A stretch of DNA of 64,000 nt. It comes from Xanthomarina sp. F1114. Its GTDB lineage: Bacteria; Bacteroidota; Bacteroidia; Flavobacteriales; Flavobacteriaceae. Numbering within the stretch: the stretch's first letter is position 1; each line of letters opens with the position of its first letter. The notes beneath the pieces are model-generated. The model did not search any database. It was not told the origin of the DNA and worked only from the letters and a program-made list of their open reading frames with translations. Positions 28,914 to 47,007 of the stretch are shown here, piece after piece. A program made the translations under genes and the position numbers. The stretch is from positions 1 through 64,000 of the forward strand of contig NZ_JAPMLL010000004.1 in NCBI RefSeq assembly GCF_026410255.1, given 5' to 3'.

Positions 28914-30914
28914 TTAATTTATGGTCTCCAATTTCTGCTGGTAGGCTTTTATTTCGTCTCTAAATTTAGCTGCTTGTAAAAAATCCAATGCTTTCGCAGC
29001 TTCCTCCATAAACTTACGTTTTTCGCGAATTTTCTTTTCCAGTTCGGCTTTAGAAAGATATTTGCTTTCTGGTTCTGCAGCTTTCATGGCTTCTAACTCA
29101 TAACTATATGTACTTACAGAGTTTTTAGATAAAGCATTGTCTAAGCTCTTGTTTAAAGCAGTTGGTGTAATGTTATGCTCTGTATTATATGCAATTTGTT
29201 TTTCACGTCTGTAATTGGTTTCATCAATAGTTTTTTGCATGCTTTTGGTTATTTTATCAGCATACATAATAGCTTTTCCGTTGAGGTTTCTGGCAGCTCT
29301 ACCAACCGTTTGTGTTAGAGATCTTGCGGAACGCAAAAAACCTTCCTTATCGGCATCTAAAATAGCTACTAACGACACTTCTGGTAAATCTAAACCTTCA
29401 CGCAATAAGTTAACTCCTACCAACACATCAAACATACCAGCTCGTAAATCCTGCATAATTTGAACACGCTCCAAAGTATCCACATCACTATGGATATAAC
29501 GAGTACGTATCTGTATTCTATCTAAATATTTTGTCAGTTCCTCAGCCATCCTTTTGGTAAGCGTAGTTACTAAAATACGTTCGTCTTTTTCTACGCGTTG
29601 TTGGATTTCCTCAATTAAATCGTCTATCTGATTTAAACTGGGGCGCACCTCAATTATAGGGTCTAAAAGTCCAGTTGGTCTAATTACCTGTTCTATATAT
29701 ACGCCTGCAGACTTTTCAAGTTCGTAGTCTGCTGGAGTTGCACTTACATAGATTACCTGGTTTTGTAAGGCTTCAAATTCTTCAAATTTTAAAGGCCTAT
29801 TGTCCATGGCTGCAGGCAGCCTAAAACCATATTCTACTAGGTTTTCTTTTCTACTTCTATCTCCTCCATACATGGCATGGACTTGAGAAATTGTAACATG
29901 ACTTTCGTCCACAACCATTAAATAATCATCTGGAAAATAATCTAATAAACAGAAAGGTCTGGTTCCTGGTTGTCTGCCATCTAAATATCTGGAATAGTTC
30001 TCAATGCCCGAGCAGTAACCCAGTTCCCGAATCATTTCTAAATCGAATTCTGTTCGTTCTTTTAGGCGTTTTGCTTCTAAGTGTTTTCCTATTTCTTTGA
30101 AATAATCGTATTGTTTTACTAAATCGTCTTGAATACTATTTATAGCTCCTTGTAAAACTTCTGGAGAAGTAACAAACATATTTGCTGGATAAATATTGAC
30201 TCTGTCATATTTTTCAATCACTTCATTCGTTTGAATGTTGAAGGCTTCAATGTCTTCAATTTCATCTCCAAAAAAATGAATTCTAAATGCATGATCGTCG
30301 TAGCTGGGAAAAATATCTACTGTATCTCCTTTTATTCTAAAATTTCCATGGTTAAATTCTGCTTCTGTTCTAGAATATAAACTCTGAACCAATCTGTGAA
30401 GTAATTTTGTTCGTGAAATAACTTGATCTGTTTCAAGAGAAATAACGTTTTTTTGAAATTCCACCGGATTTCCAATACCATATAAACAAGACACCGAGGC
30501 AATTACAATAACATCTCGTCTCCCAGAAAGTAGAGAAGAAGTAGTGCTCAATCTCATTTTTTCAATTTCTTCGTTTATAGATAAATCTTTTTCAATATAA
30601 ACTCCAGAGACTGGAATATAGGCTTCGGGTTGGTAATAATCGTAATAAGACACAAAGTACTCAACTGCATTATCTAGAAAGAATTGTTTAAACTCAGAAT
30701 ATAACTGAGCAGCCAAAGTTTTATTATGTGCTAAAACCAAAGTTGGTTTTTGAACTTTTTCAATAACATTGGCCACAGTAAAGGTTTTTCCAGAACCAGT
30801 AACACCTAATAAAGTTTGATATTTTTCATGTGCATCAAGACCTTCAGCTAATTGGTTTATAGCAGAGGGCTGATCTCCTGTTGGACTGAATTCTGATTTT
30901 ATCTTGAATTTCAT
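28914..30914 (-). CDS. uvrB: excinuclease ABC subunit UvrB
   Basis: A 666-residue helicase-like subunit of nucleotide excision repair. Walker A is GVTGSGKTFT near residue 40, the YYDYYQPEAY beta-hairpin is near 93-102, the DEAD-box variant is DESH, and motif VI is QTVGRAARN. The C-terminal UVR motif (FMEEAAKALDFLQAAKFRDE) that contacts UvrC is intact. Length matches the family. It is the last gene downstream of the T9SS block on the minus strand, 149 bp after it, so probably a separate unit. Confidence 0.98.
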   Translation of the reverse strand: MKFKIKSEFSPTGDQPSAINQLAEGLDAHEKYQTLLGVTGSGKTFTVANVIEKVQKPTLVLAHNKTLAAQLYSEFKQFFLDNAVEYFVSYYDYYQPEAYIPVSGVYIEKDLSINEEIEKMRLSTTSSLLSGRRDVIVIASVSCLYGIGNPVEFQKNVISLETDQVISRTKLLHRLVQSLYSRTEAEFNHGNFRIKGDTVDIFPSYDDHAFRIHFFGDEIEDIEAFNIQTNEVIEKYDRVNIYPANMFVTSPEVLQGAINSIQDDLVKQYDYFKEIGKHLEAKRLKERTEFDLEMIRELGYCSGIENYSRYLDGRQPGTRPFCLLDYFPDDYLMVVDESHVTISQVHAMYGGDRSRKENLVEYGFRLPAAMDNRPLKFEEFEALQNQVIYVSATPADYELEKSAGVYIEQVIRPTGLLDPIIEVRPSLNQIDDLIEEIQQRVEKDERILVTTLTKRMAEELTKYLDRIQIRTRYIHSDVDTLERVQIMQDLRAGMFDVLVGVNLLREGLDLPEVSLVAILDADKEGFLRSARSLTQTVGRAARNLNGKAIMYADKITKSMQKTIDETNYRREKQIAYNTEHNITPTALNKSLDNALSKNSVSTYSYELEAMKAAEPESKYLSKAELEKKIREKRKFMEEAAKALDFLQAAKFRDEIKAYQQKLETIN

Positions 30915-31063: not shown

Positions 31064-33394
31064 TTATCTTTTTAAAGAAAAATGACCTCGATATTCTTTT
31101 CCATTACTAAGAGTAATTATAAACCAATAATCGTCTGTAGGAAGTTGATTTCCATTAAAAGTACCATCCCAACCAGTTCCAAAAACATCTAATTCTCTTA
31201 ACAGCTTTCCGTAGCGATTAAATATTTTAACACTTGTTGAGGTTTCAAATTGATTTAAACCAAGTGGCTTCCAATAATCGTTATAACCATCTCCATTTGG
31301 TGTAAAAAACTTAGGGAAACCTAATACCGAAACATCTTCAGAAATTACGCCGCATCCATTTTTATCTTGAATATAAATTGTATGATGTCCGGCAGATACA
31401 TTTGTAAATATATTGCTGTCTTGAAAATTACCATTATCTAATGCATATTCATAATTACCTTCGCCTGAAACTGTAATTGTAATAGAGTTGTTATTTGTAG
31501 CTTCAATAATTATTATGTCTTGAATAGTAGCAATATTAGATGGAAGAACAGTTATAGTTCTTGATGCAGAACAATTATTGTTATTGGTAGCTGTTACCGT
31601 ATAAACTCCAATCTCATTCACTGAAATCTGTTCTGTATTTTGCATTAAATCTACACCATCTAGTTGCCATTGATAGGTGTAAGCTGAAGGTAGGCCGTTG
31701 ATAATTCCAGCTTCTAAGTTGATGGTTTCCGATAAATAATTGAGGCAATACATGGTTTCTTCGTCTGGAGCTAATTCTGGGCTTGGATAAACCGTGAGTT
31801 CTACAGAGGAATACGCATAACAAACGTTATTGTCTGTAATTTGCACAAATAAGATATCCAAATATGGAGCATTTGTGTTTTGATATGTTCCAGAAAGTTG
31901 ATTTGTTTGATTTTCTAAATCCTCTTGAGAAGAATAAAAAATAACATTTGCAGTATTAGGTACGCTGTTTTGAGTAATTATAAACGTGGCTATGTCGTCT
32001 AAATTAAAAGTAGTTATACCATCATTTATTTCATCGTCGCAGGTATAATATATCGGGAGTGAAATGGGATTGTTTGCAAAATCTAAGGCTAATTCAGCTA
32101 CAGAAATACAGCCATTGGCGTTAGAGACTCTAGCAAATACAGTTTGGTTTAAAGCCGTATTATCAAAACTAGTTGGATTAGGAATTGGGTTGGCTCCTGA
32201 GTTAGCTTCAGCTTCTAATAAATAAAAATTATCTAAAGTTAAACTTTGGTCGTTGTTAGTAATGTCTGCTTCTGCATCGAAGAGATTGTAAGTTGTATAG
32301 CCATCTAAGTTGTAATCGCAGCTAATTAAAGTTGTATTAAAAACAACAGGATTTGATGCTACTTCAATAGTAATATCTCCATAAGAAAAACAGGTTCCAT
32401 CAATAATTACTTCTACACTATAAGTGCCAGCGTTAGAAACTAAATAGGTAGAATCTGTTGCAAAAGGAATTTCTACACCATCTTTAAACCATTTATAAGT
32501 GTTTGTTCCAGGTTGGCTAGCATCGAGCAAAACGCTGCTGTCTGTACATAGCGCGTTATTTCTGGAAATTAACATATCTGGACCTAAATTGGTGTTTAAC
32601 TGAAAACTTCCAGCTTCTAAGAATACGGCAGAATCGTATCTGTAATTTATATGGTCTGCTATAACTAGTTTTACGTGATAGACTTCATTTGGAGTTACAT
32701 CTGCAATGGCTGTTAAAACTGTTGTTTGACCGTTAAAGTTTATTGGTGCACTAGAGTCGTTCCATCCACCAAAATAGGTTTCGTTTATCGGACTACATTC
32801 TCCAGGAATTCCGGAGTGAACGGTGGTTACTTTTACAGGTGTATAAGTTCCGGGTATTACAGCAATATTCTCGTATCTGCCTCCATCTTCTTCTTTAATT
32901 AAAAACCCGAACAAATCTGAATAGCGACAAGTGTTTGAGTCTCCTTGCTGGTATTCTTCTGAAGCAAACAGATATCTAAAACTAATTCTATCTGCAACAG
33001 CTCTAAAATTAAATTCTAAAATGGTTGCGTTGGTAGTCGCCGATTCGTTTAAAACATATTCTAAATCGTTATCGCCACGCCAGTTTGGAGCATCGTCATC
33101 ACTTAAGGATGTATTTGGACCTTGAACATTTGCTAATCTTCCTGTACTTAAAACAATTCCATTTTCAAACGGAAATCCAGCACCATTAGATTCAAAATAA
33201 CCATAGCTTTGGTCTGTACCATTAAAATTTCCACCAGAAACATTGGTAACAACTACATCTGTAATGCAGCTACTATCAATTAGAATGTCTTCAATAAGTT
33301 CTTGAGCGGTATAAGTTCCGCTATCTGTGGTTACATTTTGAGATACGGCAACACAGGAAATCAATAAGAAAGAGGCTAATAAAAACTGTTTCAT
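31064..33394 (-). CDS. choice-of-anchor L protein with T9SS type B sorting domain
   Basis: A 776-residue surface protein starting at ATG 33394. Sec signal to about residue 19 (CVAVSQ); a choice-of-anchor L domain (about 30-265: YGYFE, FPFENGIVLSTG, FLFASEEYQQ, YSDLFGFLIKE, VKLVIADH); an Ig-like segment; two copies of the shared Cys-bracketed module (about 355-545); a PKD-like segment; and a C-terminal type B (gliding motility-associated) signal with FFTPNGDGYNDYW and FNRYGKLL. It should be exported through T9SS and fixed to the surface. Last of five same-strand relatives. Confidence 0.9.
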   Translation of the reverse strand: MKQFLLASFLLISCVAVSQNVTTDSGTYTAQELIEDILIDSSCITDVVVTNVSGGNFNGTDQSYGYFESNGAGFPFENGIVLSTGRLANVQGPNTSLSDDDAPNWRGDNDLEYVLNESATTNATILEFNFRAVADRISFRYLFASEEYQQGDSNTCRYSDLFGFLIKEEDGGRYENIAVIPGTYTPVKVTTVHSGIPGECSPINETYFGGWNDSSAPINFNGQTTVLTAIADVTPNEVYHVKLVIADHINYRYDSAVFLEAGSFQLNTNLGPDMLISRNNALCTDSSVLLDASQPGTNTYKWFKDGVEIPFATDSTYLVSNAGTYSVEVIIDGTCFSYGDITIEVASNPVVFNTTLISCDYNLDGYTTYNLFDAEADITNNDQSLTLDNFYLLEAEANSGANPIPNPTSFDNTALNQTVFARVSNANGCISVAELALDFANNPISLPIYYTCDDEINDGITTFNLDDIATFIITQNSVPNTANVIFYSSQEDLENQTNQLSGTYQNTNAPYLDILFVQITDNNVCYAYSSVELTVYPSPELAPDEETMYCLNYLSETINLEAGIINGLPSAYTYQWQLDGVDLMQNTEQISVNEIGVYTVTATNNNNCSASRTITVLPSNIATIQDIIIIEATNNNSITITVSGEGNYEYALDNGNFQDSNIFTNVSAGHHTIYIQDKNGCGVISEDVSVLGFPKFFTPNGDGYNDYWKPLGLNQFETSTSVKIFNRYGKLLRELDVFGTGWDGTFNGNQLPTDDYWFIITLSNGKEYRGHFSLKR

Positions 33395-33454
33395 CAAGAA
33401 ATGTTAGTCTACAAAGATAACTAATCTTGATTCTTTATAATAATAAAGTTTTTA

Positions 33455-36400
33455 TTAGCGTTTTAAAGAAAAGTGCCTTTTTACTTCAAAAGAGATTTCG
33501 TCTTTTTTTACTAATGCTACAAACCAATAATCGGTAGACGGTAATAATTTGCCTCTATAAGTTCCATCCCAACCAGGAGAACTATGAGTTAATCTTGTTA
33601 TCAGTTTACCATACCTATCGTAAATATAAACTATGGTTCCTTCTAGTTGATCGACTCCAGTTATATGCCAGGTATCGTTATACCCATCATTATTTGGTGT
33701 AAAAAACAATGGCGCATCAATAATTACAATCTCTTTTGTAGCAGAAGCGCAACCGTTTAAGTCGATTACTTCTATAATATGTGGTCCTAAAGTAACATTG
33801 TAAAATACGTTAGACTCTTGCGGAACTCCATGATCTAGAGTGTACAGGTAATTACCAATACCACTAATAGTAACTGTAATATTATTTGGATTTGAGAAAT
33901 CTACGGTTTCTGTAAACTCTATAGTTGCTTGCTCAGATTCTATAACATTAAAAGTTGCAGTTGTCTGACATCCGTTAATGGAAGTAACAGTTACGGAATA
34001 GGTTCCAATATTCGTAATTTCGGTTTGAGAAGTTGTGGAGTTTGTGGACCATAGGTAGGTGTCGTCTGCAAAACCTGTTTCGGCTGAAACGACTAAAGGT
34101 AAATTGTCTAAACATACCGTTTGGTCTGGAATGTTTACTTCTGGTTTTCTGTTTATAAGCGTGTTAAAAGAAGTTGTGTTAAAGCAACCTGTTGCATTGT
34201 TTTCAACTCTTGCATAAATGGTTTGCTGGTTAAAAGCAGTATAATTTAATTCTTGAATGGCATTGCTATTATCCATAGCTTCTTCTTCTAATTCAAAATA
34301 ACTAACAGTAAATTGATTTGAGTTTTGTGTTCCAAGTATGAAAGAAGATTGCTGTGCTAAATTAAAAACTAATAATCCATCAAAATCGTCGTCGCAAGCT
34401 ACCATATTTTGAGGCTGATTTGCAACTGGGTTCGGGTTAACCAATAGATTAAAAGAACCAATAGTTGTACAACCTGTATCTGTATTTATAGCGTTTACAA
34501 AAATAGTGTCGTTATTAGAAGTGTAACTATATTCTGGTTCTAAAGGGTTTTGAGTATTCTCGGCATCTGATAGATTTGCGTAAAACGTTAAGTCTACAGG
34601 AGTTTGGTCTCCAATTAACTCATCTATAGCATCTAATAAATTATATGAGTTTGAATCTGCTTCACAAATTTCAATAGTTTCTGTATTTAGGCTAGGAGGT
34701 ACGTTTACAATTAATTCCAAAGGAATAGAAACAAAGCATTTGGAGACTGTATTTGTTACTCGAATATAAACAGTTTGCGGACTTGAAGTATTGTTATAAT
34801 CACTTGGATCTGGAATGGTTATATCGTTATTTTCAACATCTTCTATAGTTTCATGATAAGTTACTAAAATATCATTTTGTCTAATATCTAAAACTTCCGA
34901 TTCTGAAACGGTTAAGTCGAAACTCACGGAGCCGTCTTGATCTGTGTCGCAGGCAATTAATGCTGATGCAGAATTGACTAAAGGTACTTGAATTACATTT
35001 AAACCAAATTGTGCAATGGCGTGGCAATCGGTCCCATTTTCTACTCGCGCATAAATCTGCTGTGGATTTGAAGTATTCGTGTAGTTTAAAGGTAATTGGT
35101 TTTGTTCGGTCTCAGCATCTTCCAGACTTCTATAAAAAGTAATGGTTAATGTTTCTGGACTATTTTGAGACATTTCTGTTATAACAGTATTTAAATCGAA
35201 TGACTCCTGACTGTCGTTCGATATATCATCACATAAAAAGACATTTAAGGGAGCATCGAAAATTGGCACGGAACCTACTTCAATAACAAATGATGATACT
35301 CCAAAACAATTTTGATCGCTTGTGTTTTCCACACGAACATGGATGGTTTCAGGGCTTGACTGATTTACATAAGCCGTTGTTTTATCAATAATATTTGTTC
35401 TATTTAAAGCATCTTCAGCAGTTTTAAAATACAAAACATGTTTTCCTGTTTGTCCGTTTAAAATTTCGTCATCTTTATCTTCAAAGAAGAAATCAGCTGT
35501 TTGGTTGCCATCTGTTTCACAATTAATAAAATTACTAATATCTATAAAAACAGGTTCTGTATTTACAATAATTTCAAAATTAATTATGGCGTAACAAGTT
35601 GTAAGTTCACTTTCAACTCTTACAAAAATAGTTTGTGTGTTTGCATTATATTCAGTTGTGCTTGTAATAGCGTTTGAATTTGCATTGGCATCATCCTCAG
35701 AGGTGTGGAATGTAATATTCAGATTGTCCGTATTAGAAACAATTTCTGAAATTTTTGCATTTAAATCCACAATTGAAAAGGCATCCTGATTATCGTCGCA
35801 AATAACAATATCTAATGGCTGTGTTACAGTTGGTGCCGGAACAACGTTAATTTCAAGTGGAGATATATCATGACAACCAGTAGTGCCATCTGCTACGCGC
35901 ACATAAATAATTTGAGGGTTACTAATGTTTGTGTAAAAAGGAGCTAATACATTTTCGTTGTTTATGGCATCTTCTTCATTTAAGAAGTATGCAGTAGTTG
36001 GATTTGTAATTCCTGTACCTACATAATCGTCGAAAGCAGCTAATTCCATAGATGTAAAACCATCATCGTCTGTATCGCAATAATTAACAGCTTCTAAAAC
36101 AGGTAAAATAACTGGCGGATTGATAATTAAATTAAAGTCTGAAGAATATGTGCAATCCTCGTTTTCAAGCGTTACAAATAACTGATGAGGACTTGCAACA
36201 ACCTGGTATGAAACACTTTGGTCTATAGGATTAGATTGATTGATTTGATCAGTTTCTGTTTCGTAAAAAGTAACAGTAACATTTTCGAGACCATTCATTA
36301 TAATATTTGCAATATTCTCTAAATTGAAATCTGCAATACCATCAGCTGAGGCATCATCACAGGTATAAAAATCTCTAATATTGGTTCCAGATTCTAGAAG

Positions 36401-38302
36401 ATTTGTATGTAAGACAATAGAAGTTATAGATACGCAACCTGTTAGTTCATCCAACACTCTAATATAAACTGTTTGAACATTTGGTGTTGTATTTTCAAAA
36501 TTTTCAATGTCTTCAATTGGATTGTCTCCCGTCTGAGCGTCTTCGTAAGTTGTGTGGAATGTAGTTGAAACGCCAGTTAGTCCATCTAGAATAGTATCTA
36601 CAACAGTTGATAAATCGAAAATATCATATCCATCCCCATCTTGGTCGCAGGCATTAATAATTTCAGGATCCATACTGATAGACGGACTCTCTATAACGGA
36701 GATTTCTATAGAAGTCGTGTTTTTACAGCCTGTATTCGGGTCTATAACTCTAATAAAAATTTGTTCAGTTGGATTTGTATTTACATATGGAGAAGGAATT
36801 GGGTTGTCTCCAGAATCCGCATCGGTTTGAGAATAATGATAAGTAACAATTAGGTTGGAATTATTGTTAGTTATTTCGCCGTTTAGCTGTGTTAAATCTA
36901 TCTCGGTAAAGCCGTCGGGGGTTGCATCATCGCAAACTTCCATGGGTTGAGGATCGGTAATTACAGGTAGCGGATTGACCAGCAGATTAAAACTAGTATA
37001 GGACAAGCAGCCATTATCTGTATCAAGAATTCTAACGTGAATTAATTGCGGATTACTTGTGTTCTGAATTGGATTTGTAATTGGGTTTAAATTGTTTTGA
37101 GCTTCATTTAAAGAATAATGATAGCTAATACTATAATTGGAAGTAGGAATAGAGGCTAGAATCTCATTATCTTTAGTATTTAGATTAAAAGTCTCAATTC
37201 CGTCGTTACTTGGATCGTCGCAAATTTCATAATCTGTAACGGGGTCGGCAGTTTGTTCCGAATTTAGAGTTACTTCAACAGTATCATCAATAACACAGGT
37301 GGTGTTACTAATTGGAATACTTACAACAACTTTATATGTTCCAGAGGAAATAGCTGTTATAGTTTCTTGATTTTCGCCAGCTAGAGCCTGTCCGTTTAAA
37401 AACCACTGATAAGTCGCTAAGGGGTTTTGAATATCTCCGTTTAAAACCACATTGTCAGCACAAGTGGTAATATCTGGTCCAAGATCTACAGAGGCGTTAA
37501 AACTGTTTCCTTCAATAAACACGGCAGAATCAAAATTTTCGTCGGTTTGATCTGCAATTACTAATTTAATTCGGTATTGAACGTTAGGTTCAATACTTGC
37601 AATAGCAGAAAGTACTGTAGTTCTTCCATTAAAGTTGGTGTCTCCAAGACTATGACCTTCAAAATACTGTTCGTTTTCTGCTGGGCAAAATCCAACAACT
37701 TCTTCATGAACTGTACTTGTATTTACAGGAATAGTTGTGCCAGGAATTAATGCTACATTTTGATAAGCTGTAGTTGAACCTGTTTTCTTTATTAAGAAGG
37801 CAAACCCATCAGAATAATCGCAGGGATAATTAGCGTAATATTCTTCTGAAGCCAAAATATAATTGAACTGTACCTGATTGGAAACCGAAATAAAATCAAA
37901 TTCAATAGAGGTTGCATTTAGAGTGTTGGTTATACCTAAGGCTGTTTCTAAATCAGGATCTGTTCCCCAGGATGATTCTCCTTCATTTAAGACGTTAGAA
38001 TTTAATACGTTTCCAGCTGAAGCAGCTCCACCTGTTGAGAGTAAAATTCCGTTTTCGAACGGAAAATTAGAATCTGCTTTTTCAAAATATCCATAACTAG
38101 ATATTTGATTTACAGAGCCATTAATTGTTGATTGTATATTAGAAACTTCTACACAACCTTGTACAAGATGTGTTTCTATTAAATCGTTTAAAGGAACATC
38201 GTCGTTTACAGAAATTTGTTGTGAATAGGAAATTTGGTTAAATACCATAAAAAATATAACTAATAAATAGCCAGATAATTTTAGCCGAGAAATGCTATCC
38301 AT
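33455..38302 (-). CDS. giant choice-of-anchor L protein with 11 repeated modules and T9SS type B domain
   Basis: A 1615-residue protein starting at ATG 38302 (a TTG five codons upstream is less likely). Signal to about 28 (SYSQ), choice-of-anchor L domain (about 35-270), an Ig-like segment, then 11 consecutive modules of about 94 residues (about 358-1388). Each has C-D-x(2-4)-D-G near its start, a YH/FY-x(5)-DA segment, NTSNPQxIYVRV and a TGC-like cysteine near its end. A PKD-like region and the type B signal (FFTPNNDGYNDTW, YDRYGKLI) close the protein. Probably a long surface fibre or adhesin. Confidence 0.9.
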   Translation of the reverse strand: MDSISRLKLSGYLLVIFFMVFNQISYSQQISVNDDVPLNDLIETHLVQGCVEVSNIQSTINGSVNQISSYGYFEKADSNFPFENGILLSTGGAASAGNVLNSNVLNEGESSWGTDPDLETALGITNTLNATSIEFDFISVSNQVQFNYILASEEYYANYPCDYSDGFAFLIKKTGSTTAYQNVALIPGTTIPVNTSTVHEEVVGFCPAENEQYFEGHSLGDTNFNGRTTVLSAIASIEPNVQYRIKLVIADQTDENFDSAVFIEGNSFNASVDLGPDITTCADNVVLNGDIQNPLATYQWFLNGQALAGENQETITAISSGTYKVVVSIPISNTTCVIDDTVEVTLNSEQTADPVTDYEICDDPSNDGIETFNLNTKDNEILASIPTSNYSISYHYSLNEAQNNLNPITNPIQNTSNPQLIHVRILDTDNGCLSYTSFNLLVNPLPVITDPQPMEVCDDATPDGFTEIDLTQLNGEITNNNSNLIVTYHYSQTDADSGDNPIPSPYVNTNPTEQIFIRVIDPNTGCKNTTSIEISVIESPSISMDPEIINACDQDGDGYDIFDLSTVVDTILDGLTGVSTTFHTTYEDAQTGDNPIEDIENFENTTPNVQTVYIRVLDELTGCVSITSIVLHTNLLESGTNIRDFYTCDDASADGIADFNLENIANIIMNGLENVTVTFYETETDQINQSNPIDQSVSYQVVASPHQLFVTLENEDCTYSSDFNLIINPPVILPVLEAVNYCDTDDDGFTSMELAAFDDYVGTGITNPTTAYFLNEEDAINNENVLAPFYTNISNPQIIYVRVADGTTGCHDISPLEINVVPAPTVTQPLDIVICDDNQDAFSIVDLNAKISEIVSNTDNLNITFHTSEDDANANSNAITSTTEYNANTQTIFVRVESELTTCYAIINFEIIVNTEPVFIDISNFINCETDGNQTADFFFEDKDDEILNGQTGKHVLYFKTAEDALNRTNIIDKTTAYVNQSSPETIHVRVENTSDQNCFGVSSFVIEVGSVPIFDAPLNVFLCDDISNDSQESFDLNTVITEMSQNSPETLTITFYRSLEDAETEQNQLPLNYTNTSNPQQIYARVENGTDCHAIAQFGLNVIQVPLVNSASALIACDTDQDGSVSFDLTVSESEVLDIRQNDILVTYHETIEDVENNDITIPDPSDYNNTSSPQTVYIRVTNTVSKCFVSIPLELIVNVPPSLNTETIEICEADSNSYNLLDAIDELIGDQTPVDLTFYANLSDAENTQNPLEPEYSYTSNNDTIFVNAINTDTGCTTIGSFNLLVNPNPVANQPQNMVACDDDFDGLLVFNLAQQSSFILGTQNSNQFTVSYFELEEEAMDNSNAIQELNYTAFNQQTIYARVENNATGCFNTTSFNTLINRKPEVNIPDQTVCLDNLPLVVSAETGFADDTYLWSTNSTTSQTEITNIGTYSVTVTSINGCQTTATFNVIESEQATIEFTETVDFSNPNNITVTISGIGNYLYTLDHGVPQESNVFYNVTLGPHIIEVIDLNGCASATKEIVIIDAPLFFTPNNDGYNDTWHITGVDQLEGTIVYIYDRYGKLITRLTHSSPGWDGTYRGKLLPSTDYWFVALVKKDEISFEVKRHFSLKR

Positions 38303-38408
38303 AAAGTTAATTTTCAATGTTATTCTAATTTGGAGTTAATCTTGGGCAAAGTAATTAAAAAAATAGACCAAACGCAATAATTAACGACAAAATGCAGTAA
38401 TATTAGCT

Positions 38409-40247
38409 TTATTTGTTTAAATACACCCAACCAGTTAAGGTTTTATAGTTAGAATCGTTAAGGTTTAAGATGTAAAAATAAGTTCCGGTTGGTAAAATTT
38501 TCTCCGAGTTATTTATTCCGCGATTGGAGTTTCCAATCCATGGCTTATTGTTATCTCCCTCAAAAACAAGAGTTCCGTAGCGATTATAAATTAGTAATTT
38601 GTGAGTTTCGAAAATATTATAAAGACCTTGAATATTAAACCAATCATTATAACCATCGTTATTTGGTGTAAAAGCTTGTGGAATATTAGGTGGACAGTTT
38701 TCTACAAATAAATCGAAATAATAAACTTGGTAACAGGGTTGGTTTTCAACTTTCAAATAAATGGTTTGTGGTACTGTGGTGTTTTGGTAGTAGCTTGGAT
38801 TGAGTATTTCGTTTGTATTTGCTTCTAAATCCTCAAGAGTTTCAAAATAGGAAGTTGTTTGTCCGCTAATTTCAATTTGATCTTCGGACAAAAATAAATT
38901 AAAAGTAGACGTATCAAAGCCTTCATTACAATTTTTTATAGCTTCTAACGGAGTTATAATAACTTCTAAAAGCTGAATGTTTTGAGTGGTGACGTTGTTT
39001 AATTCGTTTAACTCGGTAATAACTCCAATACCATTTCCAATATCGTCCACGGCAATTGTTATAGTTAGATTGTTTGGTAAACTCTCAGGAATAGTAACCG
39101 TTATTTGTCCATTTTCTGACTCTCCAATATCCAAAGGCATACTGGTAAATGTATTTCCAATAAGTTCGTTATTTGCATAAATAGCAATAGGAACTTGAGC
39201 CGGTAAGACATCTGTGCTATTTGTATTATATATCGTATAATTAATAGTAACTTCCCTACTAGAACATTCTTGATTAATTTGGTTTATGTTGACGGTAGCA
39301 TCTGGAAGCTGGCTGTTTAAAACGGTAATAATATTATTAATCATGATTAAGTCTGCCTGTAAAATGCCGTTTCCATCATAATCTCCTGTAGTTAATTTTA
39401 TTTCTACTGAGGTGTCTCCAATTGCAATATTATCTTGAATGGGATACACGTCTACATCTCCATTGTAAAAAGTATTGCTGTTTGTGAAAGTATTTGTTCC
39501 ATTAAAAGCATTGTTGGCAGGGTTTAATGGCGGACTGGAAATAATATTGTTATTAATTAGTAAAGATTCTCCATATGCCAGGTTGGAATCTCCTTCCCAG
39601 GCTAAAAATCCAATTTTTGCTCCTTCGTTATCTAAAACATTTACATTGTCTAAAATGATGGTTTTTTCTTGAATATTTCTATTAATAATTTCTAAGCCTT
39701 GAAATAAATTCACCTGATTTAGTGGTAGTTGTTCGTCTTCGTAGATAACATATACACACCAGCCAGCAAAATTTGTTCGATTGCCACAATAACCAGGGTT
39801 TTCTAATAGAGTTTCTGAAATAACTAAATCGCTTAGCATATAATTAGAATTTCCTGTATTAGAGATGAGTTCTGTAATATCTGATACACAGGAAAAATAG
39901 CTGAGAGTACCGTAATTATTATCATTGAATTCTACAAGATAATTCTGGTCTGCTACTATAGATGTGTTATTTAGGCTAACTTCTAAATCGCCCTCGCCAG
40001 AGCCGGCCCAATACAAATATGCAGCAACAATGTTCGTGTTTTGTGGTAGAAATAATTCTGCTTGAGATTCCGGGAGTACATCGCAAAACGTTCGATCTAG
40101 ATTGTTTTCTGCAGGATTTAGCGTGTTTCCAAATGCCAAATAATCGTAATGCCCATTAAATTGTTGAAATAGGCTAACTTCTTGACTAAACATAAAATGA
40201 GTAGTTAGCACAAAAAATAGCACAAGGTATTTATATGGTCGGAACAT
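38409..40247 (-). CDS. T9SS type B protein with adhesin-like N-terminal region
   Basis: A 612-residue secreted protein, signal to about 21 (MFSQ). Residues about 25-290 are a beta-rich region (AAYLYWAGSGEG, AGWCVYVIYED, GFLAWEGD) resembling DUF3344-type surface domains, followed by a CARDB-like Ig fold (about 315-425: VTINYTIYN, ITELNELNNV), one shared Cys-bracketed module (about 430-515), and a divergent type B sorting domain (AFTPNNDGYNDWF, YNRYGTLVF). Its ending GWVYLNK differs from the HFSLKR of the other four. 106 bp separate it from the next gene. Confidence 0.85.
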   Translation of the reverse strand: MFRPYKYLVLFFVLTTHFMFSQEVSLFQQFNGHYDYLAFGNTLNPAENNLDRTFCDVLPESQAELFLPQNTNIVAAYLYWAGSGEGDLEVSLNNTSIVADQNYLVEFNDNNYGTLSYFSCVSDITELISNTGNSNYMLSDLVISETLLENPGYCGNRTNFAGWCVYVIYEDEQLPLNQVNLFQGLEIINRNIQEKTIILDNVNVLDNEGAKIGFLAWEGDSNLAYGESLLINNNIISSPPLNPANNAFNGTNTFTNSNTFYNGDVDVYPIQDNIAIGDTSVEIKLTTGDYDGNGILQADLIMINNIITVLNSQLPDATVNINQINQECSSREVTINYTIYNTNSTDVLPAQVPIAIYANNELIGNTFTSMPLDIGESENGQITVTIPESLPNNLTITIAVDDIGNGIGVITELNELNNVTTQNIQLLEVIITPLEAIKNCNEGFDTSTFNLFLSEDQIEISGQTTSYFETLEDLEANTNEILNPSYYQNTTVPQTIYLKVENQPCYQVYYFDLFVENCPPNIPQAFTPNNDGYNDWFNIQGLYNIFETHKLLIYNRYGTLVFEGDNNKPWIGNSNRGINNSEKILPTGTYFYILNLNDSNYKTLTGWVYLNK

Positions 40248-40286
40248 TCAATTGTAATAATTAAAATAAATGTACAACTTTTAAGT

Positions 40287-41552
40287 TTATCGCTTTAAAC
40301 TAAAATGGCTGTTATATTCTCTACCGTCTTTTAGGGTTGCAGAAAACCAATAGTCATCAGTAGGTAAAGGTTCACCATTAAAGGTTCCGTCCCAGCCTGA
40401 GCCAAGTGGATTTAATTGTTTTATTAGTTTTCCATGCCGGTCGAAAATACGAATGAGGGTATTTGGTTGGAATATATTAGAAACCCCTTTTATATTCCAA
40501 GTATCATTATATCCATCTCCATTTGGAGTGAAAAACTTTGGAAAACCAATAATTGAAACCTCTTGTGTAACAATGCCACAATTGTTTTTTATATCTCTTA
40601 CAGCCACCGTATAGATGCCGCCGTAGACATTATAAAAAATATTATCTGATTGATAGATTCTGTATAGTCCATCTTGATTGTAAAGGGCATATTCGTATTC
40701 GCCTTCGCCAGAAACTAAAACAGTTATTGTATTATTTTCGGTGGCATCTACTACAATAACATCGTTAAAAGTAGCAGTATTCGAAGGTTCTACAGTTATA
40801 TTTCTAGATTTAGAACAGCCAAAATTATCAGTCGCTGTAACAGTATAAGTGCCTATTTGGTTAATTTGAATGGTAGAAGCTGTCTCTCCATTAGACCAGA
40901 TATATGTATAATTGGTAGGAGAATCGCTTAAAACCCCAGCTTCTAATATAATAGTTTGTGGAAAGCTGTTTAGGCAATATAAAACACTTTCGTCTTCTTT
41001 TAATATAGGTAGTTTGTTTACAGTTAAATAAACTTCACTAATTCCATAGCAAGCATTATTGTTTTCCGCTCTGGCATAAATAGTTTGGTTGTATGGTGTT
41101 GTATTGGTGTATGGCGAAGTCAATTCGTTTTGTTCTAAAAGGGCATCTTGGTAATTAGGATAAAAAGTAATGGGAAAGGTTATCCCATTTATGACCTGCA
41201 TATCTGCAGCAAAATCGTTAAGGTTAAAGGTGTCAATTCCATCTTCAGAACCTAGTTCGTCGCAAATTTCAGGAGCTTGATAATCTAAAAGTTGTGTGGC
41301 GCTAACTTCTAAAGTAAGCTCTGCAATACTAAAACAACCAGTGGAATTGTCTGTTACTTGAGCATATACTGTTTGAGGATTAGAAATATTATTGTAGTTC
41401 TCAGCGTTTAACGGATCATTACTAGTTTCGGCATCGGTAGAGCTAAAATAGAACTCGGTAGATAGGTTAGTATCTCCTCCTGTTATTTCGGTGATTGCTT
41501 CATTTAAATTAAAAGTCGTTAAATTATCGTTTATACCATCGTTATCACATTG
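40287..41552 (-). repeat. direct repeat copy A (3' half of the 817-residue gene)
   Basis: About 1.27 kb aligned without a visible gap to 42747-44012 at a constant offset of 2460 bp. Three lines compared by eye show about 85-92% base identity. Similarity stops within the module that starts CDxDGINDNL. Confidence 0.9.
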
Positions 41553-42740
41553 TAAAAGTGAACTATTATTTGAAGGCGGAATAGGTAAAACCTCTAAATC
41601 TAAAGTAGTAATACTTGCACAATCAGGGTTATTGGCGTCTTCAATTCTAACAAATATTTGTTGTAAATCTGCTGTTGTATTATAATAAATATCTGCTAAT
41701 GGGTTAGTATCTGTTTCTGCATCTATTTGAAGTTCATGATAGCTAATAGTTAGATTTGCAGGATCTTGTCCGTTTAAAATCTCATTATTTTTAGTAGGAA
41801 GGTCAAAGAAAGTTTGTCCATTTGTAGCATCACCATCTTCGTAGTCATCGCATACAATATAGTTAGATGGAGTAGTGAAATCTGGGCTAGTAACAGATAA
41901 ATTAAAAGGAACAATTTCAAAACAACCTGTATTTGTATTAGTTAATCTGGCATAAACTGTTTGCGGGTTGCTTACGTTTGTATATGGACTAGCTACAGTA
42001 CCTATGTTTAAATTAGCATCACTTTCATTGAAATGGTAACTTACTGCTACATCTGTTTGAGTTCCTATTATTTGACTTGTATTGATGTCTAGATTAAACT
42101 CGGTTTCCCCGTTCCCTAGTGGTATAAGTGTATCGCAGTTTTCCAAGTCTAGAGCCTCTGGAGAGCCCATTTCGTTGGTTGGTGGGCTGGCAAACTCTGC
42201 AGTTCCTGTCCATTCAAGGCTAAACGGACTGTTTCCAATAGGCCTGTCGATAACAATAAAATACGTGTCTCCAGCCGTTACATCCAGCCATTTTACAAAA
42301 CTATTTCCAAATTGTCCTGGGCCTTCAGCTGTATCTGATTCTTCCCCGTTCATTCCGGTATAATTGTTTTGTTGTCCAGAAGCTAAAGGGTTAGTTGTCG
42401 AGCATCTAATAGCTTGACCAATATTATTACACGGTCTGTTAGGACCAAAAACAAAAAAATCGTAATCTTCTGTAATAGAAGTGCTATTAGGTCTTAAAGT
42501 AAAGCCTAACGTTCCATCGGTAACTAATGTTACTTGAAGCCATAAACTATTGTTTTCTTGACTTCCACAGGTATTAGAGCCATAGAGTTCTTGAACACCA
42601 ATACCGTTAACATTTAGATTAACTTCCGAGTTTCCACATACAATTACAGCATCTACACAATCGGTTGGTAGTTGAGCCGAAACTTGAAATACATTAAAGC
42701 ATAAAAATATTACGAATAAAAAGGGTTTAATCTGTCTCAA
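40287..42740 (-). CDS. T9SS type B protein with four shared modules
   Basis: An 817-residue secreted protein. Start is the TTG at 42740, only 6 bp after the preceding stop: it gives an intact signal peptide (MRQIKPFLFVIFLCFNVFQVSAQ, in part) and no ATG is available. Residues about 25-185 look like a pre-peptidase C-terminal/beta-sandwich domain. Four Cys-bracketed modules follow (about 200-575), then an Ig-like segment and the type B signal. The last 420 or so residues are almost identical to those of the upstream neighbour. Confidence 0.87.
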   Translation of the reverse strand: MRQIKPFLFVIFLCFNVFQVSAQLPTDCVDAVIVCGNSEVNLNVNGIGVQELYGSNTCGSQENNSLWLQVTLVTDGTLGFTLRPNSTSITEDYDFFVFGPNRPCNNIGQAIRCSTTNPLASGQQNNYTGMNGEESDTAEGPGQFGNSFVKWLDVTAGDTYFIVIDRPIGNSPFSLEWTGTAEFASPPTNEMGSPEALDLENCDTLIPLGNGETEFNLDINTSQIIGTQTDVAVSYHFNESDANLNIGTVASPYTNVSNPQTVYARLTNTNTGCFEIVPFNLSVTSPDFTTPSNYIVCDDYEDGDATNGQTFFDLPTKNNEILNGQDPANLTISYHELQIDAETDTNPLADIYYNTTADLQQIFVRIEDANNPDCASITTLDLEVLPIPPSNNSSLLQCDNDGINDNLTTFNLNEAITEITGGDTNLSTEFYFSSTDAETSNDPLNAENYNNISNPQTVYAQVTDNSTGCFSIAELTLEVSATQLLDYQAPEICDELGSEDGIDTFNLNDFAADMQVINGITFPITFYPNYQDALLEQNELTSPYTNTTPYNQTIYARAENNNACYGISEVYLTVNKLPILKEDESVLYCLNSFPQTIILEAGVLSDSPTNYTYIWSNGETASTIQINQIGTYTVTATDNFGCSKSRNITVEPSNTATFNDVIVVDATENNTITVLVSGEGEYEYALYNQDGLYRIYQSDNIFYNVYGGIYTVAVRDIKNNCGIVTQEVSIIGFPKFFTPNGDGYNDTWNIKGVSNIFQPNTLIRIFDRHGKLIKQLNPLGSGWDGTFNGEPLPTDDYWFSATLKDGREYNSHFSLKR

Positions 42741-42746
42741 AATAAA

Positions 42747-44012
42747 TTATCGTTTTAAACTAAAATGACTGTTAAATTCCCTGCCATCTTTTAGGGTTGC
42801 CGAAAACCAATAGTCATCCGACGGTAAAGGTTCTCCATTAAAGGTTCCGCCCCAGCCTGGACCAAGCGGATTTAGTTGTTTTATTAGTTTTCCATATCTA
42901 TCGTAAATACGAATCAAGGTATTTGGTTGGAATATATTGGAAACACCTTTTATGTTCCAGGTATCATTATATCCATCTCCATTTGGAGTAAAAAATTTTG
43001 GGAAACCAATAATAGAAACGTCTTGTGTAACAATGCCACAATTGTTTTTTATATCTCTTACTGCTACCGTATAAATACCTCCATAGACATTATAAAAAAT
43101 ATTATCTGATTGATACGTGTGGTATAAACCTTCTTGATTATAAAGAGCATACTCATATTCTCCTTCTCCAGAAACTAAAACAGTTATTGTATTGTTTTCG
43201 GTAGCATCTACTACAATAATATCGTTAAAAGTAGCAACATTCGAAGGTGCCACAATTATATTTCTAGATTTAGAGCAACCGGAACTATTTGTTACAGTAA
43301 CCGTATAAGTGCCTATTTGATTAATTTGAATGCTAGAAGTTGTCTCTCCGTTAGACCAGATATATGTATAATTGGCAGGAGAATCGTTTAAAACTCCAGC
43401 TTCTAATATAATAGTTTTTGGAAAGCTGTTTAAGCAATATAAAGTGTTTTCGTCTTCTTTTAGTACAGGTAGTTTGTTTATAGTTAAATAAACTTCACTA
43501 ATCCCGTAACAAGCATTATTGTTTTCAGCTCGGGCATAAATTGTTTGATTGTATGGCGTTGTATTGGTGTATGAAGAATTCAATTCGCTTTGTTCCAAAA
43601 GAGCATCTTGGTAGCTAGAATAGAAAGTAATTGGAAAAGTAATTCCATTTATGTCCTGCATTTCTGTGGCAATATTATCTAAGTTGAAACTGTTAATACC
43701 ATCTTCAGACTCCAGCTCATCACAATCTTCAGGAACTTGATAGTCTAAAAGTTGTGTGCTGCTAACTTCTAAAGTAAGCTCTGCAATATTAACACAGCCA
43801 GTTAAATTATCCGTTACTTGAGCATATAAAGTTTGAGGATTAGAAATATTATTGTAGTTCTCAGCGTTTAACGGATCATTACTAGTTTCGGCATCGTCAA
43901 AATTAAAATAGAAATTGGTAGATAGATTAGTATTTCCTCCTGTTATTTCGGTGATTGCTTCATTTAAATTAAACGTGGTTAAGTTATCGTTTATACCGTC
44001 GATATCGCATTG
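42747..44012 (-). repeat. direct repeat copy B (3' part of the 1121-residue gene)
   Basis: Partner of 40287-41552. Because the two copies are close, similar and in the same direction, they could recombine and delete or fuse the intervening gene. Confidence 0.9.
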
Positions 44013-46112
44013 AATTAAAGTAGAGTTAAAAGCTACTGGTACAGGGTTCACTACTAAATCAAAAGAAGTTATATCAAAACAAGCTGAATTTAAGTTATTT
44101 TCAACTCTAACAAATATGGTTTCGTTAAAAGGAGTTAGGTTATAATAGGGTTCAGATAATTGATTAATATTAGCTTCGGCATCTGCTTGAGAAGAATGAT
44201 AACTTACTGAATATGCCGTTGCGTCCTGATCTCCTAAAATCAAATTATTAAGGTTAAGGAGAGAGGTTTCTGTATGTCCGTTAGAAGCATCTCCATCTGT
44301 ATTATCATCGCAAGACGTTTGATTGCTTATAGGATTTGCAATTGGAGTAGTAAAAACTTCAATAAAAAAAGAAGACATATCAAAACAGCTTGGACTTCCA
44401 ATTAAATCAAGTTTTACAAAAATTTCTTGAGGATTGCTTGTATTTGTATATGGACCTATAATTTCGTTTTGGTTTAAATTGGCATCTTCTTGAGATTCAT
44501 AATAATGAACGGAATAATGGTTGCTATCTTGAGTTCCTAAAATACTACCGTCTAGAGTGGTGAAATCAAATTGCCAAAAACCGTCAGTATTATCATCGCA
44601 AATATCAATTTTGGGTACTGTGTTTGCAATTGGCGACGTAAAATATTCAATAATAGCTTCTCCTTCAAGAAAATCGCAATCTCCATTATTTAAATCGATT
44701 ACTACTTCATAAACACCGTTTTCATCAACTTCTAAAAAATAATTTGTATTGGGTAAAGGGGTTCCGTTAAAAGTCCAGGAATAACTAGCGTCAGGAATAT
44801 TTTCAGCAGTTAAAGTAAAAGTTTGGCCATTACATAAAGGCAAATAATTAGTACTTATTGGAGTTGTTGGATTATTTATAATATCTATTTTTTCAACAAA
44901 AAAAGACGAAATAAAAGGAGGGAGACCTTGTCTAGCTAATCTATTGCTATTGTCTATATTTAGGAATACTGTGTTTTCTGTGTAGTTGCATCCATTACCA
45001 ATAATATTGGGCAATTCTATAGTGCTTAAATAAGGTAAACCTATATTATATGTGCTACTTTCTGTTTTATAAATTTTACCATCTGGTCCTAATTGAAGTG
45101 CGCTCCTGTAACCTGTTTTGCTTTCAAGAATTACTTCTGAAGCACTTATGGCATTAATATTACCAGCAGTTAAATCGTATTGTAATAAAGCACTACGCTG
45201 GGCACTTGGGGCGGTGTTTGAAGGTAAATCGTTATTAGCACTAACATAAAGTACTTGGCTGTTTGGAGAAAACTCTATGCCATATGGTTTATTTGCGTTA
45301 GCATTACTTGTAATATTAATTGGTTGAGGATTACTTATTTCCCCAGTTTCTGGAACAAAATCGAAAATTAATAAGCGAGTGTTTATATTGTTTGGATTTG
45401 GACTGGCACATACTAATTTAGTTCCATCTGGAGAAAACTTTAAATAACCTCTTCTTTCTGAAATAGTAGAGCCAATATCAAAGGTGTCATGAAGAGCAAT
45501 ACCTGTATTTGAAACTTCAAAAAGATAAAATGTTTTATTATTATTGTTTACTGCATTCGAGTTTGTTAAAGCATCATCATCAGCTAAAGTAATAACCCAA
45601 ATGTTACCAGATTCGCAGTCTTTTAAAACAGCGCTTAATTTTTCTGAAGCTCTATGGAGTAAAAATTGATTTTTATCTGTAATAGCTCCTAATCCACCAG
45701 CCAGGCTCATATCTACAATAGAATAGCTAAAGCCTAAATCTTCACCTTGATAACCCAGGTTGGTACCTTGAGTAAATATATAATAAATGTTTGGGCTGTC
45801 TGGTTTTGGTATAATTATGGCAGATTGAGTACTAGACGAATTTCCATGTAAACCGTAGCCATTTTGCATTTGTAAATGATTCTTATTATATACAATTCGA
45901 CCGTCTGTATAGAATAAAAGTTCTCCGTCTGCATTAGAGATACTTGTACAGCCTTCAATTGTACTTAATGCACCATCAGTTAATGCGGTTACCGTGCCAT
46001 TATTATTAAATTGAATTCCTGCTTGATTACCAAAATACCAATTAGATGCTTCATCTTGAGAATAAGCACAGATAATATGGGTAAAAAAAATGTAAAAAAG
46101 GAATTTCTTCAT
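42747..46112 (-). CDS. T9SS type B protein with beta-propeller-like N-terminal domain
   Basis: A 1121-residue secreted protein (signal to about 18, CAYSQ). Residues about 20-400 form repeated WD40/PD40-like strands (GYLKFSPDGTKLVCASP, YGIEFSPNSQVLYVSAN, ALQLGPDGKIYKTE), suggesting a beta-propeller. A PKD-like segment, four Cys-bracketed modules (about 510-885) and the type B signal (FFTPNGDGYNDTW, YDRYGKLI, HFSLKR) follow. It begins 26 bp after the ABC permease stop, so it is probably the first surface protein of the operon. Confidence 0.88.
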   Translation of the reverse strand: MKKFLFYIFFTHIICAYSQDEASNWYFGNQAGIQFNNNGTVTALTDGALSTIEGCTSISNADGELLFYTDGRIVYNKNHLQMQNGYGLHGNSSSTQSAIIIPKPDSPNIYYIFTQGTNLGYQGEDLGFSYSIVDMSLAGGLGAITDKNQFLLHRASEKLSAVLKDCESGNIWVITLADDDALTNSNAVNNNNKTFYLFEVSNTGIALHDTFDIGSTISERRGYLKFSPDGTKLVCASPNPNNINTRLLIFDFVPETGEISNPQPINITSNANANKPYGIEFSPNSQVLYVSANNDLPSNTAPSAQRSALLQYDLTAGNINAISASEVILESKTGYRSALQLGPDGKIYKTESSTYNIGLPYLSTIELPNIIGNGCNYTENTVFLNIDNSNRLARQGLPPFISSFFVEKIDIINNPTTPISTNYLPLCNGQTFTLTAENIPDASYSWTFNGTPLPNTNYFLEVDENGVYEVVIDLNNGDCDFLEGEAIIEYFTSPIANTVPKIDICDDNTDGFWQFDFTTLDGSILGTQDSNHYSVHYYESQEDANLNQNEIIGPYTNTSNPQEIFVKLDLIGSPSCFDMSSFFIEVFTTPIANPISNQTSCDDNTDGDASNGHTETSLLNLNNLILGDQDATAYSVSYHSSQADAEANINQLSEPYYNLTPFNETIFVRVENNLNSACFDITSFDLVVNPVPVAFNSTLIQCDIDGINDNLTTFNLNEAITEITGGNTNLSTNFYFNFDDAETSNDPLNAENYNNISNPQTLYAQVTDNLTGCVNIAELTLEVSSTQLLDYQVPEDCDELESEDGINSFNLDNIATEMQDINGITFPITFYSSYQDALLEQSELNSSYTNTTPYNQTIYARAENNNACYGISEVYLTINKLPVLKEDENTLYCLNSFPKTIILEAGVLNDSPANYTYIWSNGETTSSIQINQIGTYTVTVTNSSGCSKSRNIIVAPSNVATFNDIIVVDATENNTITVLVSGEGEYEYALYNQEGLYHTYQSDNIFYNVYGGIYTVAVRDIKNNCGIVTQDVSIIGFPKFFTPNGDGYNDTWNIKGVSNIFQPNTLIRIYDRYGKLIKQLNPLGPGWGGTFNGEPLPSDDYWFSATLKDGREFNSHFSLKR

Positions 46113-46138: not shown

Positions 46139-46963
46139 TTATAAATCACGCTTTTTTAATAATCTATAGGATAAAAAGACAAATATAGCAGTCCAACCTA
46201 ATACAATGGCAATTTCATACCAGTGCACACCATAGTCGTACATTAAATCTCCCTTTTCAGGAAATTTAGTCATCATAATTCTTTGAAAAGGCTGGTCTAT
46301 GAGATTATACATAGATTTTAATGGGAAAAAAGCTTGAATTTTACCAGCAATATCCATATTGGCTTGCCAGGAAATGAGCCCGAAAGCAATCCATTCTAAA
46401 ATATATAAAATAAATAAAAAGGCTAAAGCAAAAGCAGAGCGTTTTACTAGCATGCCAAAAAACAGACACAAACTAAAAAAACCAATCAGCTTAACAAAAT
46501 AAGCTATTATAAAATCGGTTTCTCTAAATATGATTGCGGCTTCTGTATAACTAGAATAGTATAATCCAATAAAAAGCGAAGCTACTGCAATTAAAAATGT
46601 TGCAATTAGTGAGAAGAAAACAATGGTGTAAAATTTAGAAAGAATAAACTCTTTTTTACTTAAACCATCTATAAGGTTTTGTTTTAAGGTTTTATTACTG
46701 TATTCATTCCCAATCATGCTTACCACAACAATAGCAAAGAAAAATTTGAATTGCGAGGCGAAAAACGTTGTAATATGCCAGATAATTGGAAAATTAAAAA
46801 TGCCTAATTCTCCTAATTCTAAAGTAAAAAAACCAAAGAAATTTATTTTTATAGATGAAAGAATTAAAACTGTAAAAGGCAATACAAAAGAAACAAATAT
46901 TAATATTTTGCTAGTTCTATTTAAAAGCAGTTTTTGTAATTCTAGATTTAAAAGTCTTAACAT
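46139..46963 (-). CDS. ABC-2 type permease
   Basis: A 274-residue membrane protein with about six hydrophobic helices and the opening LLNLELQKLLLNRTSKILIF, typical of ABC2_membrane permeases in bacitracin- or gliding-type exporters. A conserved GNEYSNKTLKQNLIDGLSKKEF stretch (in part) couples to the ATPase. Works with the ATP-binding protein 44 bp upstream. It sits between that gene and five T9SS surface proteins, so the exporter may serve them (inference). Confidence 0.9.
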   Translation of the reverse strand: MLRLLNLELQKLLLNRTSKILIFVSFVLPFTVLILSSIKINFFGFFTLELGELGIFNFPIIWHITTFFASQFKFFFAIVVVSMIGNEYSNKTLKQNLIDGLSKKEFILSKFYTIVFFSLIATFLIAVASLFIGLYYSSYTEAAIIFRETDFIIAYFVKLIGFFSLCLFFGMLVKRSAFALAFLFILYILEWIAFGLISWQANMDIAGKIQAFFPLKSMYNLIDQPFQRIMMTKFPEKGDLMYDYGVHWYEIAIVLGWTAIFVFLSYRLLKKRDL

Positions 46964-47007
46964 GAAAGTGGTTTTATTGCTGAGGTTGGTCTGTGTAATT
47001 TAATAAA

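Follow-up and report, generated by a model that had tools for sequence, protein, structure and literature searches.

A five-gene cluster built from a shared cysteine-bracketed module

The DNA analysed here is a stretch of 64,000 nucleotides from Xanthomarina sp. F1114 (hereafter the window), which lies on contig C42 of a 3.25 Mb genome. Between positions 31064 and 46112, its minus strand carries five open reading frames (ORFs) arranged head to tail, which we designate A to E and which follow one another in the transcription order E, D, C, B, A. Each of the five proteins terminates in a Type B sorting domain, recognized by the type IX secretion system (T9SS) profile TIGR04131 above its curated cut-off, and has an N-terminus that appears hydrophobic by eye, making a signal peptide putative in each case. 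Together they contain 22 copies of a module of about 95 residues that is bracketed by two cysteines, with two copies in A, 11 in B, one in C, four in D, and four in E. The initial annotation had counted the same 22 copies in five neighbouring T9SS proteins, and profile searches reproduce both the total and its distribution.

The features of the five proteins given below lie on the minus strand. Protein E (42747-46112; 1121 amino acids) has an N-terminal region for which a family-library scan returned no significant match, followed by modules E1 (44340-44627), E2 (44034-44339), E3 (43749-44036), and E4 (43464-43751), an immunoglobulin (Ig)-like region, and the sorting domain (42750-43010). Protein D (40287-42740; 817 amino acids) carries modules D1 (41877-42164), D2 (41574-41879), D3 (41289-41576), and D4 (41004-41291) and the sorting domain (40290-40550). 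The smallest product, protein C (38409-40247; 612 amino acids), has a single module (C1, 38688-38957) and a sorting domain (38415-38687) from a different branch. An Ig-like region also precedes the sorting domain in A, B, and D.

Protein B (33455-38317; 1620 amino acids) begins with a choice-of-anchor L domain (NF038133, residues 47-273; 37499-38179) that we regard as its candidate head. This is followed by modules B1 (36962-37249), B2 (36680-36961), B3 (36389-36676), B4 (36107-36388), B5 (35828-36106), B6 (35549-35827), B7 (35261-35548), B8 (34979-35260), B9 (34691-34978), B10 (34424-34693), and B11 (34139-34423), and by the sorting domain (33458-33721). Protein A (31064-33397; 777 amino acids) has a head of the same type (NF038133, residues 52-265; 32603-33244), an Ig_7-like domain, modules A1 (32063-32347) and A2 (31775-32068), and the sorting domain (31067-31321). 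Beyond the sorting tag, and the head domain in these two proteins, the annotation of A to E had been slight.

Successive copies in the window start 90-101 residues apart and have a mean pairwise identity of 29%. Their majority columns read C-D....D-G, F-[ND]-L, D-A, N-T...Q-[TQ]-I-[YF]-x-R-V, and a second C, in agreement with the motif originally described. Both cysteines occur in 22 of 22 copies, at a distance of 65-77 residues. Profiles built with one protein left out recovered every module of the omitted protein at 46-85 bits, compared with best scores of 5.9-10.2 bits in a shuffle control of 1000 sequences per protein. The whole genome holds 37 copies, namely the 22 in the window, seven in a frame of 1314 amino acids, seven in a frame of 2000 amino acids, and one in a frame of 559 amino acids. 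In the last of these (locus L068, 3096-4763), the second cysteine of the single module is replaced by Met, and there is no Type B place listed at this locus.

Scans of the 22 single modules against Pfam gave 12 families that each matched one module copy (best E value 0.0082), and those against NCBIfam gave a best E value of 0.013 for a single member. Searching PDB sequences with the module profile returned nothing below an E value of 0.26, and scans of full-length A to E against Pfam and NCBIfam found nothing significant over the modules. On these results, the known-domain readings of the module were rejected. They also bear out the initial annotation, which recognized no named domain and proposed a profile search of the family libraries, where no well-described domain was matched. 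Literature searches located no title or abstract opening that describes the module, although this is a weak absence because most subscription papers fall outside the coverage. Of 149 genomes sampled from the family, which we take to be Flavobacteriaceae, 133 contain the module, as do 247 of 249 genomes from the genus of genome G172, taken as Flavobacterium. Among 395 genomes from the phylum, 54 contain it, including 39 from the family, seven from a different family of the order, and eight from elsewhere in the class.

Predicted fold, cysteines, and acidic loop

Modelling of module B8 with AlphaFold2, using the other 21 copies, yielded a confident common fold with a predicted local distance difference test (pLDDT) score of 93.3, a predicted template modelling (pTM) score of 0.83, and the strand (E) and helix (H) order E-E-H-E-H-E-E-E. 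The model is an Ig-like beta-sandwich with two short helices. Its matches to grappling hook protein A (GhpA), PKD, and Ig domains are weak, with a best Foldseek E value of 0.027 and Z scores up to 6.2. The confident common fold of the model supports the Ig-like unit proposed at the outset, and neither of the two findings that the initial annotation had named as refuting it, a match to a well-described domain or a prediction with no common fold, was obtained.

A tandem of modules B7 to B9, modelled from 46 sequences, is likewise predicted to be ordered (pLDDT 92.4, pTM 0.71), with every ten-residue block scoring at least 82, which is in keeping with the rod-like multi-module unit envisaged earlier. 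This tandem aligns over its full length with tandem Ig arrays from GhpA, titin (I67-I69), and Dscam, and cadherins appear in the Foldseek list. The best Foldseek E value is 2.6e-9, and the best Z score is 7.8 over 227 residues at a root-mean-square deviation of 7.6 A. Because this Z score is below 8, the likeness may reflect a common arrangement alone. On the strength of these models, we read the module as an Ig-like stalk unit of a semi-rigid chain.

Judged by strand order only, the first cysteine (residue 10) is where the opening strand ends and the second (residue 79) immediately precedes the final strand; they do not occupy the classical Ig disulfide position on strands B and F. Their conservation was assessed in two collections. 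The first comprises 20 fetched loci, three from the window's own genome and 17 from other genomes that were selected for a listed matching frame of about 1600 amino acids, a choice that biases the cysteine, position, and synteny counts obtained from them. In this set, 356 of 357 scorable copies retain the two cysteines, with five rows gapped at a cysteine column set aside. The second collection comprises 77 named loci taken from the best 80 of at least 587, where both cysteines occur in 1324 of 1328 scorable copies and 36 gapped rows were set aside. Exactly two cysteines are found in 1516 of 1592 distinct copies of at least 80 residues. The expectation that the cysteines always come in pairs is therefore nearly without exception, and paired cysteines in exported proteins argue that each module very probably forms one internal disulfide.

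The loop from the first cysteine to F-[ND]-L is nine residues long in 553 of 1640 distinct copies. In these 553 loops, position 1 is D in 89%, position 3 is D or N in 93%, position 5 is D in 86%, and position 6 is G in 81%. The resulting C-D-x-[DN]-x-D-G pattern can be likened to the start of an EF-hand loop, which makes Ca2+ binding plausible but unproven. When EF-hand profiles were run on A to E, only EF-hand_1 in protein B gave a match (E value 1.2; 9.3 bits versus a cut-off of 25.4), and an EF-hand identity for the loop was not accepted on the basis of this score.

Module number in protein B and the cluster in other genomes

A query with the N-terminal part of protein B gave 66 best places (E value at most 1e-82) in 58 of the 149 family genomes, and 58 of these places have a frame of 1600-1670 amino acids. 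At least two of the other eight appear truncated at the edge of a contig, and another contains an internal stop. Among the named loci, in which an orthologue was defined as an uncut ORF whose best segment is at least 42% identical, 47 of 54 intact B orthologues have 11 modules (two of these ORFs lie outside the length window of one comparison). The remainder have 14 modules (four), 17 (one), nine (one), or none (one, a piece of 221 amino acids). These two counts, by frame length and by named locus, are less biased than those from the 17 selected genomes. For the other proteins at the named loci, the module number is two in 26 of 27 for A, one in 29 of 32 for C, four in 15 of 19 for D, and four in 24 of 32 for E.

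Individual positions within the array are conserved as well. Between the genomes represented by 19 B proteins, 3633 of 3762 best matches (96.6%) join modules at equal positions. Equal positions have a mean identity of 38-58% between genomes and mostly retain their own Cys-Cys spacing, compared with the 29% identity among copies within the window. This positional orthology rules out a recent tandem duplication as the origin of the array. Six longer proteins, namely five named orthologues and an additional one with 17 modules (L088, L092, L107, L112, L090, and L058, with 14 or 17 modules), run from position 1 to position 11 and then continue with one or two units of 9-10-11; in the additional protein, one position is unclear in its register. 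Consequently, in the six longer cases seen, B appears to have grown by its terminal triplet. The nine-module orthologue is missing positions 10 and 11, and more distant paralogues fall outside the 9-10-11 register. A near-frozen array of 11 modules, with triplet growth in the longer cases, would make B an unusual length-conserved repeat protein.

In contrast to the array of B, the last 1266 bp of D (40287-41552) and E (42747-44012) are 87% identical as DNA and include an identical run of 66 bases, which points to recent copying or conversion between these neighbours.

The cluster is flanked upstream by what we take to be an ATP-binding cassette (ABC) transporter pair (46139-47904, minus strand), consisting of a permease (46139-46963) and an ATPase (47008-47904), and downstream by a gene that is presumably uvrB (28914-30914). 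The order ABC-(E/D)-C-B-A-uvrB, with gene losses, is seen again in the 17 selected genomes, where the ABC pair or the permease is found in 13 and uvrB in 10; the remaining loci are truncated or rearranged. Genes for an ABC ATPase and a permease are likewise placed directly upstream of the adhesin genes in many of the family's genomes, as well as in Flavobacterium johnsoniae.

Orphan Type B substrates and a proposed shared shuttle

Type B substrates commonly adjoin a gene for their own PorP/SprF shuttle (PMC12618676). According to passages of the same paper, nine of the 12 Type B substrates of F. johnsoniae are paired in this way, and the three orphans, Fjoh_1123, Fjoh_1720, and Fjoh_4934, share the unpaired shuttle Fjoh_1677. 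There is no cognate PorP/SprF gene directly downstream of A to E, and none of the seven PorP places in the genome is on the window's contig. This genome has 14 Type B places, six of which are PorP-adjacent and eight of which are orphans. The module occurs in none of the six and in seven of the eight, and the orphan that lacks it is cut at a contig end.

Two further genomes were examined in the same manner. Genome G667 has 12 Type B places, comprising nine that are PorP-adjacent and three orphans, and two unpaired PorP genes, the first of normal size and the second part of a fused frame. Because the order and spacing of its Type B genes fit the published tags, we infer that G667 is F. johnsoniae; the Fjoh tags were assigned to its genes by position and count, without a named record. 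Its orphans are a protein of 1097 amino acids with four modules, one of 774-784 with two, and one of 726-730 with none. The 774-amino-acid gene follows an ABC ATPase and permease that are 70% and 52% identical to those of the window, and has the same divergent neighbour (64%). Its product matches protein A best among the window's proteins (40% over 791 columns). This gene is the syntenic equivalent of the cluster in the window, and its position would make it Fjoh_4934. In genome G634 there are 16 Type B places, one of them under the cut-off, of which 11 are paired, none with modules, and five are orphans, two with modules. For the three genomes combined, modules are present in 11 of 16 orphans compared with none of 26 PorP-adjacent substrates (Fisher p 1e-6).

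A PorP gene lies within 2 kb for two of 214 module proteins with a sorting domain in the named loci and for none of 60 in the family loci, counts in which a neighbouring PorP could be missed where the flanks of a locus are cut. In both exceptions, the gene belongs to the Fjoh_1677-type shuttle class itself and is located directly downstream. In their sorting domains, A, B, D, and E cluster with the F. johnsoniae orphans and SprB, although with weak support.

The genome of the window has an orthologue of the shared shuttle. Its unpaired PorP (contig C22, 194736-195689) is the reciprocal best match of the unpaired shuttle of G667 at 57% identity, and the genes flanking the two are 57% and 79% identical. 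In each genome, a Cys-x-Cys tail is present only on the shared shuttle and the SprF candidate, representing two of six PorP proteins in the window's genome and two of ten in G667, with the fused PorP of each genome outside these counts since its tail is cut off in the fetched stretch. One further PorP tail in G667 reads C-x-x-C. We collected 63 shuttle loci, of which 60 were fetched down the match list, skipping plus-strand matches near a contig start, and three were added (that of the window's genome and two from Flavobacterium). The Cys-x-Cys tail is found in 62 of the 63. Twin cysteines of SprF are needed for its disulfide with GldK, which carries SprB on the gliding track (PMC12635249), and the like tail suggests that the shared shuttle can probably be bonded to the track as well, and its adhesins moved. 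Handling of orphan sorting domains by the Fjoh_1677-type shuttle, with physical recognition, has been demonstrated in F. johnsoniae, where one of these domains was shown to reach the gliding track, albeit rarely (PMC12618676).

Seven of the 63 shuttle loci end unresolved at a contig boundary. In 14 of the 56 resolved loci, a Type B gene is located directly upstream of the shuttle gene, and 11 of these 14 genes encode modules. The other three are fragments, of which two run off the end of a contig and one has 136 amino acids. In many draft genomes the shuttle gene lies no more than a few hundred bases from the end of its contig (for example G130:C10:104, G029:C6:108, and G141:C5:101, and seven of the 63 loci above), as if a repetitive upstream gene had broken the assembly. 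Of the 149 family genomes, 124 have both module and shuttle, nine the module only, one the shuttle only, and 15 neither. The corresponding numbers for genomes with SprA are 123, eight, one, and 14, giving a p value of 4e-13 that ignores relatedness and depends on a line for shuttle orthologues that we set at a drop in the match list (230 versus 197 bits). Absence of the T9SS does not explain this co-occurrence, as SprA is present in 15 of the 16 module-free genomes.

Taken together, these observations lead us to propose, with a probability of about 0.65, that the repeat is a stalk module of Flavobacteriaceae Type B T9SS adhesins that rely for delivery on a single common shuttle, which is probably linked to the track. 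The module would be an Ig-like beta-sandwich of about 95 residues, without a name so far and held closed by an internal disulfide, and each adhesin would consist of a variable N-terminal head, a stalk of in-line modules, and the C-terminal Type B sorting domain. Proteins A to E would be exported by the T9SS and then picked up and retained at the outer membrane by a single PorP/SprF-family shuttle, the orthologue of Fjoh_1677. Adhesins of this class would make no use of a carrier encoded beside each substrate. Through its Cys-x-Cys tail the shuttle would bond to the gliding track, such that the adhesins might at times be carried along the cell surface. The structural portion of the initial interpretation is retained in part in this proposal, although the link to orphan substrates and a shared shuttle was beyond its reach. 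A bolder and rather doubtful extension is that B acts as a molecular ruler whose 11 specialised modules set the distance of its head from the cell, with A to E serving as cooperating adhesins of different reach on one disulfide-tethered shuttle on the gliding tracks.

Several observations weigh against the proposal of a shared, track-linked shuttle. Orphan status and the module are not identical, because modules are absent from one F. johnsoniae orphan (of three) and from three G634 orphans (of five). Protein C is a possible exception, since its sorting domain groups, with weak support, with the PorP-adjacent type, and C may depend on a shuttle other than the one proposed for A, B, D, and E. 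No Type B gene precedes the shuttle in 42 of the 56 resolved loci, where the upstream gene points away. In nine genomes with the module, no orthologue of the shuttle appears; completeness is 75-84% for four of them and 99% for two others, G054 and G091, which have one and 28 module matches, respectively. The two limits noted above on the co-occurrence statistic belong here also, and the label 'Ig-like' rests on the predicted model because the single-module structure matches are weak. Finally, most SprB fusions carrying the sorting domain of Fjoh_1123 are static, and helical movement was reported in 3% of cells (PMC12618676).

This last result is what would be expected if the modules served as unspecialized Ig-like spacers in surface proteins with a static anchor, involved in cell-cell or particle adhesion or in a matrix, that share a shuttle through similar sorting domains and have no role on the track. 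The branch position of the protein C sorting domain would fit as well. However, the nearly universal SprF-like tail of the shuttle, the movement in a minority of cells, and the weakly supported grouping of the A, B, D, and E sorting domains with that of SprB rather than with most paired ones speak for a track connection, and we consider static anchoring possible but unlikely. It is less probable still that the module itself binds a ligand, for instance a sugar or surface in a Ca2+-dependent manner, with the array providing avidity rather than length. The acidic loop in many copies and the individual conservation of the B positions, as expected of separate binding sites, are compatible with this idea. 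On the other hand, much of the conservation concerns cysteines and hydrophobic residues, which look structural and are common to the modules of all five proteins, A and B have a different N-terminal domain as their candidate head, and Pfam scans gave no significant match to lectin or EF-hand families. The explanation that we find hardest to accept is ordinary repeat growth, in which module number is under no special constraint and serves no function. The 87% DNA identity of the D and E gene ends and the variable module number in D, E, and paralogues would agree with it, but the retention of both position and number in B would not.

The module, though missing from the searched libraries, is common in the sampled genomes of the family and provides a recognizable body for the majority of the orphan Type B proteins encountered here, which genome evidence ties to one shuttle. 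It also provides a testable prediction in F. johnsoniae concerning which adhesins share gliding tracks with SprB.

Ig-like stalks on surface adhesins are known as a kind. Among the known systems closest to the module is Ig_7 (PF19081; Ig-like domain, CHU_C associated), a domain from a similar kind of protein, which occurs in protein A at residues 278-350, outside the modules, and is matched by none of the 22 copies. Another is GhpA of Aureispira, a T9SS product with bacterial tandem Ig-like domains (PDB 9FLP, 9FLS, and others) that ranks high or at the top in both structure lists. The likeness is at the level of the fold, with 10-15% identity in structural alignments and Z scores of 5.2-7.8. 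Animal Ig arrays score equally well and there is no evidence of common descent, and GhpA was not accepted as a true relative.

The SprB/SprF system (PMC12635249) resembles the one proposed here in a sorting domain from the same weakly supported branch and a shuttle with a Cys-x-Cys tail. It differs in that the SprB candidate of G667, a frame of 6503 amino acids identified by its size and partner, has its own paired carrier, and no module was detected in this frame at an E value of 1e-3. The closest parallel is the orphan system of F. johnsoniae (PMC12618676), with which the window's proteins share the Type B sorting domain, the lack of an adjacent PorP gene, and an orthologous shuttle in the genome. 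Two of the three candidates for these orphans have the module, one of them is syntenic with the window, and it is nearest to protein A. The module, the 11-module protein, and the five-gene cluster are not described in the passages of that paper available to us. Relative to the libraries and literature searched, the new elements are the module family, an 11-copy protein with triplet growth, and the tie between the module and the orphan class of Type B substrates.

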